A stretch of DNA of 64,000 nt from NCBI RefSeq assembly GCF_007992115.1, contig NZ_BJZQ01000001.1, positions 124,001-188,000 on the forward strand, read 5' to 3'. Source of the DNA: Aeromicrobium flavum. Lineage in GTDB: Bacteria; Actinomycetota; Actinomycetes; Propionibacteriales; Nocardioidaceae. The notes beneath the pieces are model-generated. The model was not told the DNA's origin, made no database searches, and saw only the letters and a program-made list of their open reading frames with translations. The position numbers and the translations under genes were made by a program. Shown piece by piece: positions 34,424 through 41,711 of the stretch (its first letter is position 1; every line of letters starts with the position of its first letter).

Positions 34424-34554
34424 TTACACAGATGTGATTCTCCACATATAGGTCCACAGGCGGACCGGTGTTACCCACACGATGACCGGAGATGTCCACA
34501 TTCCGTCCCCAGATCCATCCACGGGGCGGATTCGGCCCGAGGCGAGGAGGAAAG

Positions 34555-35061
34555 ATGCACTGCCCGTTCTGCAAGCACACCGACACGCGCGTGCTCGACT
34601 CGCGGGTGGCCGACGAGGGCGGCTCGATCCGCCGCCGCCGCGCGTGCTCGCAGTGCGAGAAGCGCTTCACCACGATCGAGCAGATGCAGCTCATGGTGGT
34701 CAAGCGCTCCGGCGCCACCGAGCCGTTCGTCCGCGAGAAGGCCGTCGCCGGCGTCGCCAAGGCCTGCAAGGGACGTCCGGTCTCCACCGACGACCTGGCG
34801 TGCCTGGGCCAGCAGGTCGAGGACACCCTGCGTGCCTCCGGCCAGGCCGAGATCAACACCCAGGACATCGGGATGGCGATCCTCGAGCCCCTGCGGGCCC
34901 TCGACGAGGTCGCCTACCTGCGCTTCGCGTCCGTCTACAAGTCCTTCGACTCGGCCGACGACTTCGTCGCCGAGATCGCCGGTCTGCTGGCCGACCAGGC
35001 CGACATCACCCAGGTGCTCGACCCCTCGTCGCAGCGCCCCACTCCCGGCGCCGGGTCCTGA
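34555..35061 (+). CDS. nrdR: Transcriptional repressor NrdR
   Basis: 168 residues. N-terminal zinc ribbon [17 protein letters not shown] ... [15 protein letters not shown] with four Cys ligands, then an ATP-cone domain (about residues 46-136) that senses ATP/dATP. It represses ribonucleotide reductase genes when dATP is high. A GAGGAGG ribosome-binding site fixes ATG 34555. It is 62 nt from nrdJ, the usual nrdR-nrdJ pair, and a candidate NrdR box covers the promoter, so autoregulation is likely. Confidence 0.97.
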
Positions 35062-35123
35062 CCGACCCCTCGCCCCACGCACGACACACCCACCACGCAG
35101 CACCACCACGACAGGAGCACCAC

Positions 35124-38045
35124 ATGACCGAGACGGTCGGCGGGAACTCGGGACCCGCCCCTCGCACCAGCCGCAAGTCCGCCAAGACCGGACTGAAGAT
35201 CGAGCGTGTCCACACGACCGAGGGCGTGCACCCGTACGACGCGGTCACGTGGGAGCGTCGCGACGTCGTCCAGACCAACTGGAAGACCGGTGAGACCGTC
35301 TTCGAGCAGCGCGGTGTGGAGTTCCCCGACTTCTGGAGCCTCAACGCCTCCACGATCGTCACCACCAAGTACTTCCGCGGTGCCGTGGGCAGCCCCGAGC
35401 GCGAGGCCAGCCTGCGCCAGCTGCTCGACCGCGTCGTCCTGACGTACGTCAAGGCGGGCAAGGACTTCGGCTACTTCGCCACCGACGCCGACGCCGAGAT
35501 CTTCGAGCACGAGCTGACCTACATGCTCCTGCACCAGGTCTTCAGCTTCAACAGCCCGGTGTGGTTCAACGTGGGCACCTCGAGCCCGCAGCAGGTCAGC
35601 GCGTGCTTCATCCTGGCCGTCGACGACTCGATGGACTCGATCCTGAACTGGTACCGCGAGGAGGGCCTGATCTTCAAGGGCGGCTCCGGTGCCGGCCTCA
35701 ACCTGTCGCGCATCCGTTCCAGCAAGGAGCTGCTGCGCTCCTCCGGTGGCACGGCTTCCGGTCCGGTGTCGTTCATGCGTGGTGCGGACGCGTCGGCCGG
35801 GACGATCAAGTCCGGAGGCGCCACCCGACGCGCCGCCAAGATGGTCGTGCTGGACGTCGACCACCCCGACATCGTCGAGTTCGTCGAGACCAAGGAGCGC
35901 GAGGAGGAGAAGATCCGCGTGCTGCGTGACGCGGGCTTCGACATGGACCTGGGCGGCTCGGACATCACCAGCGTCCAGTACCAGAACGCCAACAACTCGG
36001 TCCGCGTCAACGACGAGTTCATGGAGGCCGTCGAGGAGGGCACCTCCTTCGGCCTGCGCGCCCGCACCAGCGGCGAGGTCATCGAGGAGATCGACGCCCG
36101 CGACCTGTGGGGCAAGATGGCCCAGGCCGCGTGGGCCTGCGCCGACCCGGGCATCCAGTACGACTCGACGATCAACGACTGGCACACGACGCCGGAGTCG
36201 GGCCGGATCACCGCCTCGAACCCGTGCAGCGAGTACATGCACCTGGACAACTCCAGCTGCAACCTCGCCAGCCTGAACCTGCTCAAGTTCCTGTCCGAGG
36301 ACGGCTCGTTCGACACCCAGAAGTTCGTCAAGAGCGTCGAGTTCATCATCACCGCGATGGACATCTCGATCTGCTTCGCCGACTTCCCGACCGAGGCGAT
36401 CGGCGACACGACGCGCAAGTTCCGTCAGCTCGGCATCGGCTACGCCAACCTCGGCGCCCTGCTGATGGCGTCGGGCCTGGCGTACGACTCCGACGGCGGC
36501 CGCGCGCTCGCCGCGGGCATCACGTCGCTGATGACCGGCACGTCCTACCGCCGCAGCGCCGAGCTCGCCGGCGTCGTGGGCCCGTACGAGGGCTATGCGG
36601 CCAACGTCGACGGCCACCAGCGCGTCATGCGCAAGCACCAGGCGGCCAACGACGAGATCCGCACCAAGCACGCGATGGACATCGCCGTGCAGAAGGAGGC
36701 CACCAAGCAGTGGGCGGCCAACCTGAAGATCGGTGAGAAGAACGGCTGGCGCAACTCGCAGGCCTCGGTCCTGGCGCCCACCGGCACGATCGGCTTCATG
36801 ATGGACTGCGACACGACCGGCATCGAGCCGGACTTCTCGCTGGTCAAGTTCAAGAAGCTCGTCGGCGGCGGCTCGATGCAGGTCGTCAACCAGACGGTGC
36901 CCGCCGCGCTGGAGAAGCTCGGCTACACCGGCGAGACGATCGAGGCGATCGTCGAGTTCATCGCCGAGCACGGTCACGTCATCGACGCCCCCGGCCTGCG
37001 CCCGGAGCACTACGAGGTCTTCGACTGCGCCGTCGGCGAGCGGGCCATCAAGCCGATGGGTCACGTGCGGATGATGGCGGCGGCCCAGCCGTTCCTGTCC
37101 GGCGCCATCAGCAAGACGGTCAACATGCCCGAGAGCGCGACGGTCGAGGAGATCGCCGACGTCTACTTCCAGGGCTGGAAGCTCGGCCTGAAGGCGCTGG
37201 CCGTCTACCGCGACAACTGCAAGGTCGGCCAGCCGCTGTCCAGCCAGAAGTCGCAGGACGACAAGACCTCGGCGGCCGACGCGCCCCAGGCCGAGGTCCA
37301 GGTCATCGAGAAGATCGTCGAGAAGCCGATCCGTCGGCGCCTGCCGAAGTCGCGCGCCTCGATCACGACCAGCTTCAGCGTCGGCGGCGCCGAGGGCTAC
37401 ATGACCTCCGGTGCCCACGACGACGGCACGCTGGGCGAGATCTTCCTCAAGCTGGGCAAGCAGGGCTCGACTCTGGCCGGCGTGATGGACGCGTTCAGCA
37501 TCGCCGTGTCGATCGGCCTGCAGTACGGCGTGCCGCTCGAGACGTTCGTGACCAAGTTCACGAACCTCAAGTTCGAGCCCGCCGGCCTCACCGACGACCC
37601 GGACGTCCGCATGGCGCAGTCGATCATGGACTACGTCTTCCGCCGCCTGGCGCTGGACTACATCGACTTCGACACCCGGTCGGCCATGTCGATCTTCTCG
37701 GTCGACGAGCGTCAGCGGTACCTCGACACGGGCTCGTACGAGCCGGTCAAGGGCGACGGGTCGACGGCGGCCGAGCTGGTCGCCGACGAGCCCGAGGGTC
37801 CGTCCGCCGCGGCGGCCGCCGAGCTCAAGGCCGAGGCGCAGATCAACGACGCCGACGCCGTGGCGGTCCAGGTCGAGACGGCACGTCCCGCCTCGGGTCG
37901 GGCCCACACCTCGGCCGAGCTGCTCGAGGAGATCACGGGTGCGGCGGTCGACAGCCCGCTGTGCATGACCTGCGGCACGAAGATGCGTCCCGCCGGCTCC
38001 TGCCACGTCTGCGAGGGCTGCGGCAGCACCAGCGGCTGCAGCTGA
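35124..38045 (+). CDS. nrdJ: Adenosylcobalamin-dependent (class II) ribonucleoside-diphosphate reductase
   Basis: 973 residues. It reduces ribonucleotides using adenosylcobalamin to start the radical, so it works with or without oxygen. Visible: the GGSGAGLNLSRIRSSKE region, active-site NPCSEYMHLDNSSCNLASLN with the Asn-Cys-Glu set and radical Cys, the PTGTIGFMMDCDTTGIEPDF loop, and a C-terminal Cys-rich tail (CMTCGTKMRPAG, CEGCGSTSGC) that relays electrons and may bind zinc. The unordered segment 805-900 is Ala/Glu-rich. ATG 35124 has an AGGAG site. It makes growth depend on cobalamin unless another RNR exists. Confidence 0.97.
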   Translation: MTETVGGNSGPAPRTSRKSAKTGLKIERVHTTEGVHPYDAVTWERRDVVQTNWKTGETVFEQRGVEFPDFWSLNASTIVTTKYFRGAVGSPEREASLRQLLDRVVLTYVKAGKDFGYFATDADAEIFEHELTYMLLHQVFSFNSPVWFNVGTSSPQQVSACFILAVDDSMDSILNWYREEGLIFKGGSGAGLNLSRIRSSKELLRSSGGTASGPVSFMRGADASAGTIKSGGATRRAAKMVVLDVDHPDIVEFVETKEREEEKIRVLRDAGFDMDLGGSDITSVQYQNANNSVRVNDEFMEAVEEGTSFGLRARTSGEVIEEIDARDLWGKMAQAAWACADPGIQYDSTINDWHTTPESGRITASNPCSEYMHLDNSSCNLASLNLLKFLSEDGSFDTQKFVKSVEFIITAMDISICFADFPTEAIGDTTRKFRQLGIGYANLGALLMASGLAYDSDGGRALAAGITSLMTGTSYRRSAELAGVVGPYEGYAANVDGHQRVMRKHQAANDEIRTKHAMDIAVQKEATKQWAANLKIGEKNGWRNSQASVLAPTGTIGFMMDCDTTGIEPDFSLVKFKKLVGGGSMQVVNQTVPAALEKLGYTGETIEAIVEFIAEHGHVIDAPGLRPEHYEVFDCAVGERAIKPMGHVRMMAAAQPFLSGAISKTVNMPESATVEEIADVYFQGWKLGLKALAVYRDNCKVGQPLSSQKSQDDKTSAADAPQAEVQVIEKIVEKPIRRRLPKSRASITTSFSVGGAEGYMTSGAHDDGTLGEIFLKLGKQGSTLAGVMDAFSIAVSIGLQYGVPLETFVTKFTNLKFEPAGLTDDPDVRMAQSIMDYVFRRLALDYIDFDTRSAMSIFSVDERQRYLDTGSYEPVKGDGSTAAELVADEPEGPSAAAAAELKAEAQINDADAVAVQVETARPASGRAHTSAELLEEITGAAVDSPLCMTCGTKMRPAGSCHVCEGCGSTSGCS

Positions 38046-38102: not shown

Positions 38103-38149
38103 CCGTCTCAGCTGCGGCCGAAACCGCGCCCGCGCCCGCGTCCGCCACT

Positions 38150-38216
38150 CCCCACTTTTGGAACTGGATTCACCTCGGATCGGCGATTCGACGTGAAACC
38201 AGTTCCAAAAGTGGGG
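38150..38216. repeat. 24-bp inverted repeat between nrdJ and the flavoprotein gene
   Basis: Arms 38150-38173 and 38193-38216 pair over 24 bp with a single A-A mismatch and a 19-nt loop. The outer arm starts CCCCACTTTTGGAACTGG, AT-richer than its surroundings. Both flanking genes point the same way and nrdJ already has its own terminator 48 nt upstream, so this may be an operator, a second terminator or a dispersed palindromic repeat. Confidence 0.65.
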
Positions 38217-38237
38217 AAGGGCGCGGACGATGGGGGC

Positions 38238-39413
38238 ATGGAGCGTCTGGTGATCATCGGGGGAGGGCTCGCTGCCGCGAAGGCAGTCGAGCGACTGCGC
38301 GACGAGGGGTACGAGGGGTCGATCGACCTGGTGGGTGCGGAGGACCACGCCCCGTACGAGCGTCCGCCGCTGTCGAAGGACCTCCTTCTGGGTCAGGACA
38401 CCGACCCGACCGCGCTGGCCGACGACTGGTGGGCCGCCAACGACGTCCGCCTCCTCACCGGAGTGAGGGCCGTCGCGATCGACCGGGAGGCGCAGGCGGT
38501 CGAGCTCGACTCGGGGGAGGCGCTGCCGTACGACCTGCTGGTGCTGGCGACCGGCGCCGAGCCCCGCGTGCCCGACCTGCCCGGGGCCGACCACGCGCTC
38601 TACCTGCGCACCCTCGAGGACCAGGAGCGGGTGCTGGCGGCGCTGCGGGCGGGCGGACGGCTGGTCATCGTCGGCGCCGGCTGGATCGGACTGGAGGTGG
38701 CCGCGGCAGCGCGTCACCACGACGTCGAGGTGATCGTGCTCGAGCAGGCCGACCTGCCGCTCGGGTCCGTGTTGGGGGCCGACCTGGCCCGTCACCTGCT
38801 CGACCTGCACCGGTCGCACGGGGTCGACCTCCGTACGGGCGTCACCGTGGAGGAGGTGCTGCTCGAGGGTGACCGACCGGTCCGCGTGCGCACCGCGCAG
38901 GAGTCGATCGAGGCCGACCACGTCCTCGTCGCGATCGGGGCTGTCCCGTCGGTGGAAATCGCGCGGGACGCCGGGCTCGAGATCGATGACGGCATCGTGG
39001 TCGACGAGCGGTTCCAGACGCAGGACGAGCACATCCTGGCCGTCGGCGACGTCGCGAACGCCTGGAACACCGCCCTGCACGCGCGGATCCGGGTCGAGCA
39101 CTGGGACAACGCGATCCGTCAGGGCCGGGCGGTCGCCGACGTCCTGCTCGGCCGCGAGGCGCACCACGACTGGCTCCCGTACTTCTACACCGACCAGTTC
39201 GAGTTCTCGATGGAGTACGTCGGCCGCCCGGGTGAGGACGACCGCCTCGAGGTCCGTGGCGACGTGGGAGCGAACGAGTTCATCGCCTACTGGATCGACG
39301 CGGAGGGCCTGCTGACGGGCGCGATGAACGTCGGCATCTGGGACGTGAACGACACGCTGCGGGCCATGGTGGGCACCCGGGTCGACCCCGAGGCGCTCAC
39401 CGACCTGCGCTGA
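38238..39413 (+). CDS. FAD/NAD(P)-dependent ferredoxin-reductase-like oxidoreductase
   Basis: 391 residues of the rubredoxin/ferredoxin reductase family. The FAD-binding IIGGGLAAAKAVERL starts at residue 5, followed by APYERPPLSKDLLLG; the NAD-binding VIVGAGWIGLEVAAAA is near residue 145, and the second FAD motif ILAVGDVANAW near 266. The C-terminus carries YFYTDQFEFSMEYVG. These enzymes pass electrons from NAD(P)H to a ferredoxin serving a P450 or oxygenase; no such partner is encoded nearby. ATG 38238 fits the family start better than the upstream in-frame ATG. Confidence 0.9.
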   Translation: MERLVIIGGGLAAAKAVERLRDEGYEGSIDLVGAEDHAPYERPPLSKDLLLGQDTDPTALADDWWAANDVRLLTGVRAVAIDREAQAVELDSGEALPYDLLVLATGAEPRVPDLPGADHALYLRTLEDQERVLAALRAGGRLVIVGAGWIGLEVAAAARHHDVEVIVLEQADLPLGSVLGADLARHLLDLHRSHGVDLRTGVTVEEVLLEGDRPVRVRTAQESIEADHVLVAIGAVPSVEIARDAGLEIDDGIVVDERFQTQDEHILAVGDVANAWNTALHARIRVEHWDNAIRQGRAVADVLLGREAHHDWLPYFYTDQFEFSMEYVGRPGEDDRLEVRGDVGANEFIAYWIDAEGLLTGAMNVGIWDVNDTLRAMVGTRVDPEALTDLR

Positions 39414-39460
39414 CCGACACGGCGCGCGTGTGACGAAGCGCACCGCCCGGATGCGTCGGG

Positions 39461-39506
39461 TGCATTAGTGCAAAGGATGCACAACTGCATATTCTGCAAG
39501 AGTGCA
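39461..39506. promoter_or_regulatory. Six phased TGCA elements at the tetR promoter, probable TetR operator
   Basis: TGCA occurs at 39461, 39469, 39478, 39486, 39495 and 39503, alternating 8- and 9-bp steps, i.e. a 17-bp unit repeated about 2.7 times. Pairs form interrupted palindromes such as GTGCA-N5-TGCAC (39468-39482). The -10 TATTCT (39490-39495), 6 nt before the GTG start, lies within it. It probably binds several dimers of the adjacent regulator. Confidence 0.65.
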
Positions 39507-40128
39507 ATCAGAGACCGTCAGCCCGCTCGTCGCCGAGCGCCAGCGCCGCACGTGGACTGCGATCCACCGTGCCGCCGCGGACGCCACGCTCGAGCGCGGT
39601 CCCGGCGACGTGACCGTCGCCCAGATCGCCGAGATCGCGGGTGTCTCGCCGCGGACCTTCTTCAACTACTTCGACTCGAAGGAGGACGCGATCGTCGGCG
39701 TGCAGGCTCCGCACCTGACCGACGACGTGCTGCGCGACCTGCGCGAGTCCACCGACGACCCCGCCATCTTGCGGGTGTGCCGGCTCGTCACCGAGGTGGC
39801 GCGCTCGACGATCGGCCCCGGCGTCGACATGGACCAGCGACGAGCGCTGGCCGCCGCCCATCCGCACCTGCGCGGACGGCTCACGGCGATGTTCGGCGAG
39901 GCCCGCAAGCTGCTGATGGCCCGTCTCGTCGACGACGTCGAGCCGCCGTGGTCCGGCATCGAGGGGCTCCCGGCCGACCCTGCCGAGGCCCGGGCCCTGA
40001 TCCTGCTCGCCAACGGCATCGTCACGCTCGCGTGGATGTCCGACACCGACCGACTCTTCACCGACCCCGACGCCGCGCTCGCGGAGTCCATCGACACCTT
40101 CCGAAAGGTCACGACCACCGCACTATGA
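39502..40128 (+). CDS. TetR-family transcriptional regulator
   Basis: 208 residues. The N-terminal TetR helix-turn-helix is clear: RRTWTAIHRAAADATLERGP, then VTVAQIAEIAGVSPRTFFNYFDSKEDAI with the recognition helix. The ligand-binding C-terminal domain is unassigned. GTG 39502 is fixed by TATTCT 6 nt upstream, so the mRNA is leaderless and the start codon itself touches the last TGCA element. Overlaps the MFS transporter gene by ATGA; it most likely represses itself and the pump and is released by a pump substrate. Confidence 0.93.
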   Translation: MQSETVSPLVAERQRRTWTAIHRAAADATLERGPGDVTVAQIAEIAGVSPRTFFNYFDSKEDAIVGVQAPHLTDDVLRDLRESTDDPAILRVCRLVTEVARSTIGPGVDMDQRRALAAAHPHLRGRLTAMFGEARKLLMARLVDDVEPPWSGIEGLPADPAEARALILLANGIVTLAWMSDTDRLFTDPDAALAESIDTFRKVTTTAL

Positions 40129-41711
40129 CCACTGCCGCTCCCACCCCCGATCTGCACCAGAAGCGCACCATCCGCCTGGTGTTCGCCGCCCTCATGCTCG
40201 TGATGCTGCTGGCGTCGCTGAGCCAGACGGTCCTGTCGACCGCGCTGCCGACCATCGTCGGCTCGCTCGACGGCGCCGACCACATCGCCTGGGTCATGAC
40301 GGCCTACCTGCTCGGCATGACCGTGACGATGCCGATGTACGGCCGTCTTGGCGACCGCCTCGGCCGCAAGCCGCTGCTGCTGCTCGCCATCACCCTCTTC
40401 ACGATCGGCTCGCTGGTCGGTGCGATCGCGCAGGACATGAACGTCCTGATCGCCGGACGCGCGATCCAGGGCCTCGGCGGCGGTGGCCTGATGGTGCTGT
40501 CGCAGGCCGCGATCGCCGACGTCGTCCCGGCGCGGGAGCGCGGCAAGTACATGGGCATCCTCGGCGCGGTCTTCGGCCTGTCGTCGGTGGCCGGCCCGCT
40601 GCTGGGCGGCTGGTTCACCGAGGGACCCGGCTGGCGCTGGACCTTCTGGATCAACGTGCCCCTCGGCGTGATCGCCTTCGTCGCCGTCGTGATGCTGCTG
40701 GCCAAGCCCGCCCTCGAGCGCGCCCAGGCGCGCGTCGACTACCTCGGCATGGCGCTGCTGGCCATCGCCACCAGCGCGCTCATCCTCGGCGCGACCTGGG
40801 GCGGCCACCAGTACGACTGGGACAGCCCGCAGATCATCGGTCTGGGCATCGTCACCGTCGTCGGCGCGATCGCGTTCGTCCTCGCCGAGCGCGTGGCGCA
40901 GGAGCCGGTCATCCCGCTGGCCCTGTTCCGCGACCGGAACTTCAACCTCACCACGGTCGGCGTCATCATCCTGGGCGTCGCGATGTTCGGCTCGCTGTCG
41001 TACCTGCCCACGTACCTGCAGATGTCGGTCGGCGTCGACGCCACCCATGCGGGTCTGATGATGATCCCGATGATGGGCGGCATGCTCATCACCTCGATCA
41101 CGGTCGGCCAGGCGGTCAGCCGCACGGGTCGCTACCGCTGGTTCCCGATCGCGGGTGCGGTCGTCACGGGTGCGGGCCTGTTCTGCCTCTCGACGATCGA
41201 CATAGGCGACTCGCGCTGGATCATCGAGGGCTCGCTGCTGGTGCTCGGCATCGGCATCGGCCTGGGCATGCAGATCCTCACGCTGATCGTCCAGAACTCG
41301 TTCTCGCACCAGATCGTGGGCACGGCCACCGCCGCGAACAACTTCTTCCGCCAGGTCGGCGGCACGCTCGGTGCCGCCGCGGTGGGCTCGATCTTCACCT
41401 CGCGCCTCACCGAGACCCTGGCCACGGAGCTGCCCTCGACCGGCCGGTCCGGCAGCGGGTCGTCCTCCCTGACCCCCGACGCGGTCGCCCAGCTGCCGCA
41501 GGAGCTGCACGACATCGTGGTGGGCGCCTACAACGAGGCCCTCATGCCGATCTTCCTGTGGATCGCGCCGTTGACGCTCGTGTCGGCCGCCGTGCTGTGG
41601 TTCGTGCACGAGAAGCCGCTCAAGCACACCATCGAGGCGGCGAAGAAGGACGAGTCGCTGGGCGAGCACACGCTCGACGCCGCCGAGGCGATGTCCGGCG
41701 CCGAGCGCTGA
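40125..41711 (+). CDS. MFS multidrug efflux transporter (DHA2/EmrB-QacA type, 14 TMS)
   Basis: 528 residues, 14 predicted helices. DHA2 motifs: LSQTVLSTALPTIVGSL in helix 1, motif A GRLGDRLGRKP between helices 2 and 3, motif C-like VFGLSSVAGPLLGGWFTE in helix 5, and WRWTFWINVPLGVIAF. It exports lipophilic drugs or cations with proton antiport; the substrate is not deducible. It is translated from within the tetR stop, so the two form one regulated unit. It ends 1 nt before the convergent recD stop, with no hairpin between. Confidence 0.94.
   Translation: MTTAAPTPDLHQKRTIRLVFAALMLVMLLASLSQTVLSTALPTIVGSLDGADHIAWVMTAYLLGMTVTMPMYGRLGDRLGRKPLLLLAITLFTIGSLVGAIAQDMNVLIAGRAIQGLGGGGLMVLSQAAIADVVPARERGKYMGILGAVFGLSSVAGPLLGGWFTEGPGWRWTFWINVPLGVIAFVAVVMLLAKPALERAQARVDYLGMALLAIATSALILGATWGGHQYDWDSPQIIGLGIVTVVGAIAFVLAERVAQEPVIPLALFRDRNFNLTTVGVIILGVAMFGSLSYLPTYLQMSVGVDATHAGLMMIPMMGGMLITSITVGQAVSRTGRYRWFPIAGAVVTGAGLFCLSTIDIGDSRWIIEGSLLVLGIGIGLGMQILTLIVQNSFSHQIVGTATAANNFFRQVGGTLGAAAVGSIFTSRLTETLATELPSTGRSGSGSSSLTPDAVAQLPQELHDIVVGAYNEALMPIFLWIAPLTLVSAAVLWFVHEKPLKHTIEAAKKDESLGEHTLDAAEAMSGAER

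Follow-up and report, generated by a model that had tools for sequence, protein, structure and literature searches.

A conserved array of phased TGCA half-sites at an Aeromicrobium tetR promoter, a probable set of TetR operators of a type found in many actinobacteria

AtsR of Corynebacterium glutamicum is a TetR-type regulator that represses an exporter operon from the site TGCAAAATTGCA (TGCA-N4-TGCA); the available text reports mutation of this site, which has its A/T flanks inside (W-inside), and concludes that it binds one dimer (PMC9210681). For SGR5269 of Streptomyces griseus, two sites of the form TTGC-N7-GCA(A/T) and two EMSA shifts are described (PMC3511530), and the MftR operator is given as a GGCA-N5-TGCC palindrome inside a 27-bp footprint, in which single changes did not impede binding (PMC8728441). 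Larger assemblies are also on record: EthR is reported as an octamer on a 55-bp operator, QacR and CgmR as pairs of dimers (as cited in PMC9210681), and SCO7222 and ActR are each described with three operators and three shifts (PMC3511530).

The window considered here, i.e., the whole stretch of Aeromicrobium flavum DNA that was analysed (64,000 nucleotides), contains a TetR-type gene and an efflux pump gene preceded by six TGCA half-sites over the promoter. It resembles the AtsR system in its TetR-type regulator, TGCA-N4-TGCA site and exporter operon; according to the available text, however, AtsR has a sole, W-inside 12-bp site for one dimer, and its exporter is of the RND type. The SGR5269 region is likewise composed of palindromes in one footprinted region beside the regulator's own gene, with autoregulation proposed, but it has two sites with a half-site step of 9 instead of 8, and the divergent MFS gene is apparently not regulated (PMC3511530). 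The MftR operator as described has G/C flanks inside (S-inside) with a step of 9, which counts among its similarities, and differs in its single site and in another half-site base (PMC8728441). EthR, QacR and CgmR resemble our reading of the window in that a single operator takes up more than one dimer of the TetR family, whereas their half-sites and spacing are different and the available text describes no TGCA lattice; the operators of SCO7222 and ActR have other sequences, and a regular tandem pitch is not among the features described for them in the accessible text (PMC3511530). Multi-dimer TetR operators and sites like those of AtsR, MftR and SGR5269 are already known, while a wide TGCA lattice rule is undescribed in the accessible parts of these sources, and we found no description of a regular TGCA lattice in the open-access literature searched.

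Read directly from the window, the six TGCA copies are located at 39461..39464 (e1), 39469..39472 (e2), 39478..39481 (e3), 39486..39489 (e4), 39495..39498 (e5) and 39503..39506 (e6), with successive steps of 8, 9, 8, 9 and 8; the six coordinates and the alternating 8/9-bp steps reported in the first-pass annotation were exact on re-reading. The pattern TGCA-N4/5-TGCA-N4/5-TGCA has four matches in the window, every one within the array, and none in any of 100 dinucleotide shuffles. Across the organism's own 3.09-Mb genome (3,090,412 bases) the three-element pattern is matched four times in the array and once elsewhere (C2:193988), the reversed control pattern is matched once, and the single occurrence of the four-element pattern is the array itself. 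At the array, a repeat finder reported a 13-nt direct repeat, 39461-39473 and 39495-39507, whose copies agree to 85%; it listed no inverted repeat with arms of at least 10 nt, the palindromes proposed below having shorter arms. A chance origin was rejected on the basis of the shuffles, the genome-wide uniqueness, the conservation in the genus and the comparison with Markov shuffles, and a simple tandem repeat was rejected because the spacers differ.

The tetR gene (39502..40128, plus strand) has a GTG start codon and encodes a protein of 208 aa with the recognition helix VSPRTFFNYF and a TetR_N domain (PF00440; 38 bits, cut-off 24). A -10-like hexamer, TATTCT (39490..39495, plus strand), is found 6 nt upstream of the GTG at 39502, and the layout of TANNNT, 6 nt and a GTG overlapping element 6 recurs in 7/7 genus loci read. 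Judged by the positions of the hexamer and the GTG, the array extends over the likely core promoter, the first codon and what is presumably the start of the transcript. The earlier claim that a leaderless tetR gene has its -10 and its start codon within the array is well supported, since this layout holds in all seven loci; the -10-like box directly precedes the start codon and leaves no room for a ribosome site, and the tetR transcript is probably leaderless. The end of tetR overlaps by 4 bp the start (40125) of a gene for a DHA2 (EmrB-type) efflux MFS transporter (40125..41711, plus strand), which is assigned to this class at 264.6 bits against TIGR00711 (cut-off 230.2). On the other side, the array is preceded by a ferredoxin-reductase-like gene (38193-39413; Pyr_redox_2).

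The nearest NCBIfam model to the window TetR is that of MftR (TIGR03968), but with 40.3 bits against a cut-off of 224.9 the protein falls outside MftR. Its predicted structure contains 11 helices (mean pLDDT 92.3), and the nearest PDB folds are transcriptional regulators of the TetR family, namely SCO0337 (2dg7, TM 0.62) followed by SCO3201, with MftR of M. tuberculosis ranking further down; SCO0337 is also the best PDB entry by sequence (5.7e-8). In an alignment of 53 sequences (the window protein and 52 of 63 relatives), T52, F53, F54, N55, Y56, F57, S59 and K60 are invariant and S49 and R51 are conserved at 90% or more, an invariance that arises partly by selection, because FFNYFDSK served as a search peptide.

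Elsewhere in the window, a large ORF at 34482-38045 presumably encodes a protein resembling a ribonucleotide reductase of the cobalamin-dependent class. Between two genes, at 38143-38223, there is an 81-nt near-perfect palindrome (40-nt arms, 88% complementary). At up to two mismatches, the arm CCCCACTTTTGGAACTGG is matched 29 times in the organism's own genome (17 on the plus and 12 on the minus strand, against none for the reversed control), and 16 of these matches form eight facing pairs 49 bp apart; the element is a palindromic repeat dispersed over the genome. Its exact core of 16 bases was found in 12 of 205 loci, all from this genome.

The TetR protein was sought in 148 genomes, including 49 of the genus Aeromicrobium, where strong matches (E <= 2.5e-38) were obtained in 10: the own genome, six with 62-68% and three with 39-40% identity. 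The first-pass annotation had held that orthologous promoters lacking the phased elements would speak against it; all six elements with identical steps are retained in each of the six other genomes with a 62-68% orthologue. The best named relative is a bin of Aeromicrobium choanae (locus L003, 64%), which carries the same array as L086, so that the two together make up one of the seven genus loci counted. Across these 7/7 loci (62-100% protein identity) none of the 24 TGCA columns varies, and the mean column agreement is 5.1/7 in the spacers, 4.3/7 in the 30 upstream columns and 5.5/7 in the 30 downstream columns, which are coding. Genome G016 has four elements at steps 8, 9 and 8, and in G001 and G042 TGCA copies occur at steps 9, 17 and 8, with a degraded GGCA (by eye) where the element is missing. 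The four-element pattern is present in 8 of the 49 genus genomes, all 8 being among the 10 tetR carriers and none among the other 39 (Fisher 1e-7, relatedness of the genomes not corrected for). As a separate observation, a GCAAC-N5-GTTRC-like block is seen by eye roughly 9-23 bp upstream of element 1 in several orthologues (L084, L086-L089); at about 39438-39452 of the window it is hardly retained (by eye).

Beyond the genus, a TetR-protein search yielded 147 loci, of which 80 were kept and 78 counted as distinct, with the duplicates L081 and L082 left out and L003 of the own genus included. At least one in-phase step (8, 9, 16, 17 or 18) was observed between TGCA copies in 69/78 loci and at least two in 60/78, compared with 4.0% and 0.3%, respectively, in order-1 Markov shuffles of the same regions. 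Within a region that begins 150 bp upstream of tetR and ends 36 bp inside it, 335 of the 339 TGCA pairs up to 28 bp apart are spaced at 7-9, 16-17 or 24-26 bp (8 bp, 72 pairs; 9 bp, 62; 16 bp, 71; 17 bp, 42; 25 bp, 44), counts that are not independent, because the loci are related to each other. A control stretch further on, 186 bp long, mostly coding and of other composition, contains one TGCA pair up to 45 bp apart across all loci. Nine of the 78 relatives have no in-phase step: L030, L034, L049, L050 and L060 carry two TGCA copies 25 bp apart, and L066, L067, L068 and L070 carry one or none. A pump relative (E up to 1e-4) accompanies 61 of the 80 loci, in 4 cases upstream on the other strand.

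The recognition helix shared by the 78 loci partly reflects the search itself, FFNYFDSK having been a search peptide; a scan by DNA pattern only, free of this bias, gave 8 positives among 394 genomes of the class, 5 from the own genus and 3 from others, and each of these 3 adjoins, at 150-180 bp, a TetR with the helix VSxRTFF[NSA]YF. A phylum scan for steps 8-8-8 was positive in 9/296 genomes, 7 of them through plain 8-mer tandem repeats; the remaining two are L163, which is found at an RTFF-type TetR, and L170, with no such helix within 2.7 kb. The array belongs to a type of operator that occurs in many actinobacteria. Its earlier interpretation as operators of the local TetR gains support from the conservation among orthologues and from the association with one type of TetR, and since related bacteria keep the spacing, the array very probably provides a series of docking sites from which the repressor turns off its own gene and the pump downstream.

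Among the other TetR loci of the same genome (33 hits surveyed, 30 with loci, located by family coordinates), two in-phase steps occur in 0/29 and one in 4/29. A second TetR of this genome, L151 (G000:C4:157421; helix VSRRTLFNYV), has TGCA copies at -83, -64, -56 and -37 (steps 19, 8 and 19), where the 19-bp step exceeds the 8-9 bp step by roughly one helical turn, and a fifth copy at -51. The Subtercola lobariae locus L008 comprises 13 places of the lattice, of which 7 are exact TGCA and 6 are degraded, mostly 8 bp apart and starting about 106 bp before tetR; its left half-sites are TGCA, and the right ones after the first are degraded.

The direction of each element was set by the bases flanking TGCA, A/T outside and G/C inside. 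With the 8-step pairs of the seven genus arrays taken as units, the inner flanks are G/C in 37/42 and the outer flanks A/T in 36/42 cases (binomial tests 7e-4 and 2e-11, for related sequences and with backgrounds of 0.65 and 0.35 that were assumed, not measured). Elements e1, e3 and e5 are of the left type (W-TGCA-S) and e2, e4 and e6 of the right type, e6 overlapping the GTG start codon; e1, present in 7/7 genus arrays, and e5 are assigned by the genus majority. The window itself departs from the pattern with G before and T after e1 and C before and A after e5, and the polarity therefore characterises the genus and not the window copy as such. In the wider locus set, TGCA neighbours 8 or 9 apart are of opposite types in 65 cases and of the same type in 2 (67/134 unclear), and those 16 or 17 apart are of the same type in 48 cases and of opposite types in 2 (63/113 unclear).

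Array ends and symmetry were listed for 71 of the 80 loci, leaving out L066, L067, L068 and L070 (no array), the duplicates L081 and L082, and the Corynebacterium loci L071, L073 and L075 (steps 9, 8, 17 and 9). A left element opens and a right one closes 53 of the 71 arrays; the reverse order is seen in 4, an odd number of places in two groups of 8 and 2, and 4 are ties. Among the 18 outside the majority is L003 of the genus, owing to an additional degraded CGCA that was included in its count. The prevalence of left-start, right-end arrays favours S-inside palindromes as the units, three of them in the window at a 17-bp pitch: the putative operators GTGCATTAGTGCAA (39460..39473), ATGCACAACTGCAT (39477..39490) and CTGCAAGAGTGCAA (39494..39507), delimited by the flank polarity in the genus. 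Most likely, the array consists of three adjoining 14-bp palindromes at a 17-bp pitch for three dimers. The first-pass annotation had suggested up to three overlapping operators; the six conserved half-sites do leave room for more than one TetR dimer, about three, but the flank polarity points to units that adjoin rather than overlap.

Taken together with the gene order, the sequence evidence makes it probable that the array represents the operators of the TetR encoded directly behind it, three palindromes that would repress the tetR-MFS operon. TetR dimers would dock on TGCA half-sites paired into palindromes, W-TGCA-S NN S-TGCA-W, lying head to tail at the 17-bp pitch across the -10 box, the start codon and the point where transcription presumably starts, with possible cooperativity of neighbouring dimers. 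The bound repressor would block RNA polymerase, and a ligand, probably a substrate of the pump, would free TetR from the DNA, upon which the regulator and the pump would be produced together.

A different pairing of the same half-sites deserves the most attention among the alternatives, although we consider it unlikely: TetR dimers on the W-inside pairs e2-e3 (TGCAAAGGATGCA) and e4-e5 (TGCATATTCTGCA), two binding fully, with e1 and e6 as flanking half-sites. Among relatives, the step that stays more constant is indeed the W-inside one, right to left (8 in 116/137), the S-inside step varying between 8 (87) and 9 (97), and no flank is better conserved than the T on the W side (202/254); yet the genus Aeromicrobium is unusual in having an S-inside step of 8 and a W-inside step of 9, not 8. 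The second 9-bp junction of the array exactly holds the -10-like hexamer, which may explain these unusual steps. TGCA centres 7-8 bp apart suit one TetR dimer less than centres 9-10 bp apart, which also counts against W-inside pairing, as do the predominance of left-start, right-end arrays and the conservation of e1 and e6 like the rest (7/7), which orphan half-sites would not need. Parallels for it are AtsR, whose operator TGCAA-N2-TTGCA needed both halves in EMSA according to the available text, and the own-genome paralogue L151 with its 8-bp step between two of 19. The AtsR-like form is absent from the array in the comparison of DNA sites, the W-inside pairs there having a step of 9. Neither spacer symmetry nor paired changes of degraded half-sites separated S-inside from W-inside pairing in the 71 of 80 loci listed.

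The AtsR 12-mer was found in 26/151 genomes (29 loci) of the genus of genome G501, which we take to be Corynebacterium. An RTFF helix is encoded near 6 of the 29 loci, and 3 have the start of an MMPL-like gene (by eye); the remaining 20 show neither feature, in line with the many chance matches to be expected of a 12-mer. The three MMPL-like loci, L174, L176 and L194 (probably Corynebacterium), contain 4 to 6 TGCA half-sites, some degraded, with the 12-mer inside the array; the S-inside step is 11 there, and the W-inside step stays at 8, in favour of W-inside pairing. In L174 the 12-mer precedes the MMPL-like gene (by eye) and further half-sites follow 11 bp outside it; the published AtsR site may therefore be the centre of a larger array. 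Given the constant W-inside step, the loci with an S-inside step of 11, the AtsR motif and L151, the assignment of three dimers to three S-inside palindromes is held only moderately.

The proposal of a single-dimer operator among chance or inherited TGCA copies without function, for which L058 and L065 with only one pair in the lattice walk could be cited, is very improbable in view of the invariance of six elements in 7/7 loci (62-100% protein identity) while the spacers drift, and of the 13 lattice places in Subtercola L008. Binding of the array by another protein, or a DNA-modification hot spot, independent of TetR, is suggested by the self-complementarity of TGCA and can practically be dismissed, given the co-occurrence with tetR in the genus (8/10 vs 0/39) and the presence of the array at RTFF-type TetR genes across the class.

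What makes the three-palindrome operator interesting is not so much the single locus as the rule that it exposes across many actinobacteria. Tentatively, we suggest that TetR proteins with an SxRTFFNYF helix, a large actinobacterial class, might bind, in place of isolated operators, a lattice of tandem TGCA palindromes with dimers side by side around the DNA, at a 16- or 17-bp pitch in fixed register, with up to 13 half-site places and one nearly fixed junction; the copy number would set the cooperativity and thus the sharpness of exporter-gene induction. If this is true, the operator could be read from bare sequence for many uncharacterised actinobacterial TetR-exporter operons, and probably the number of bound dimers as well. 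The arrays, with lengths from one to about six units, would form a natural series relating operator copy number to the induction of drug pumps, and they pose a sharp structural question, namely which neighbouring half-sites share one dimer.
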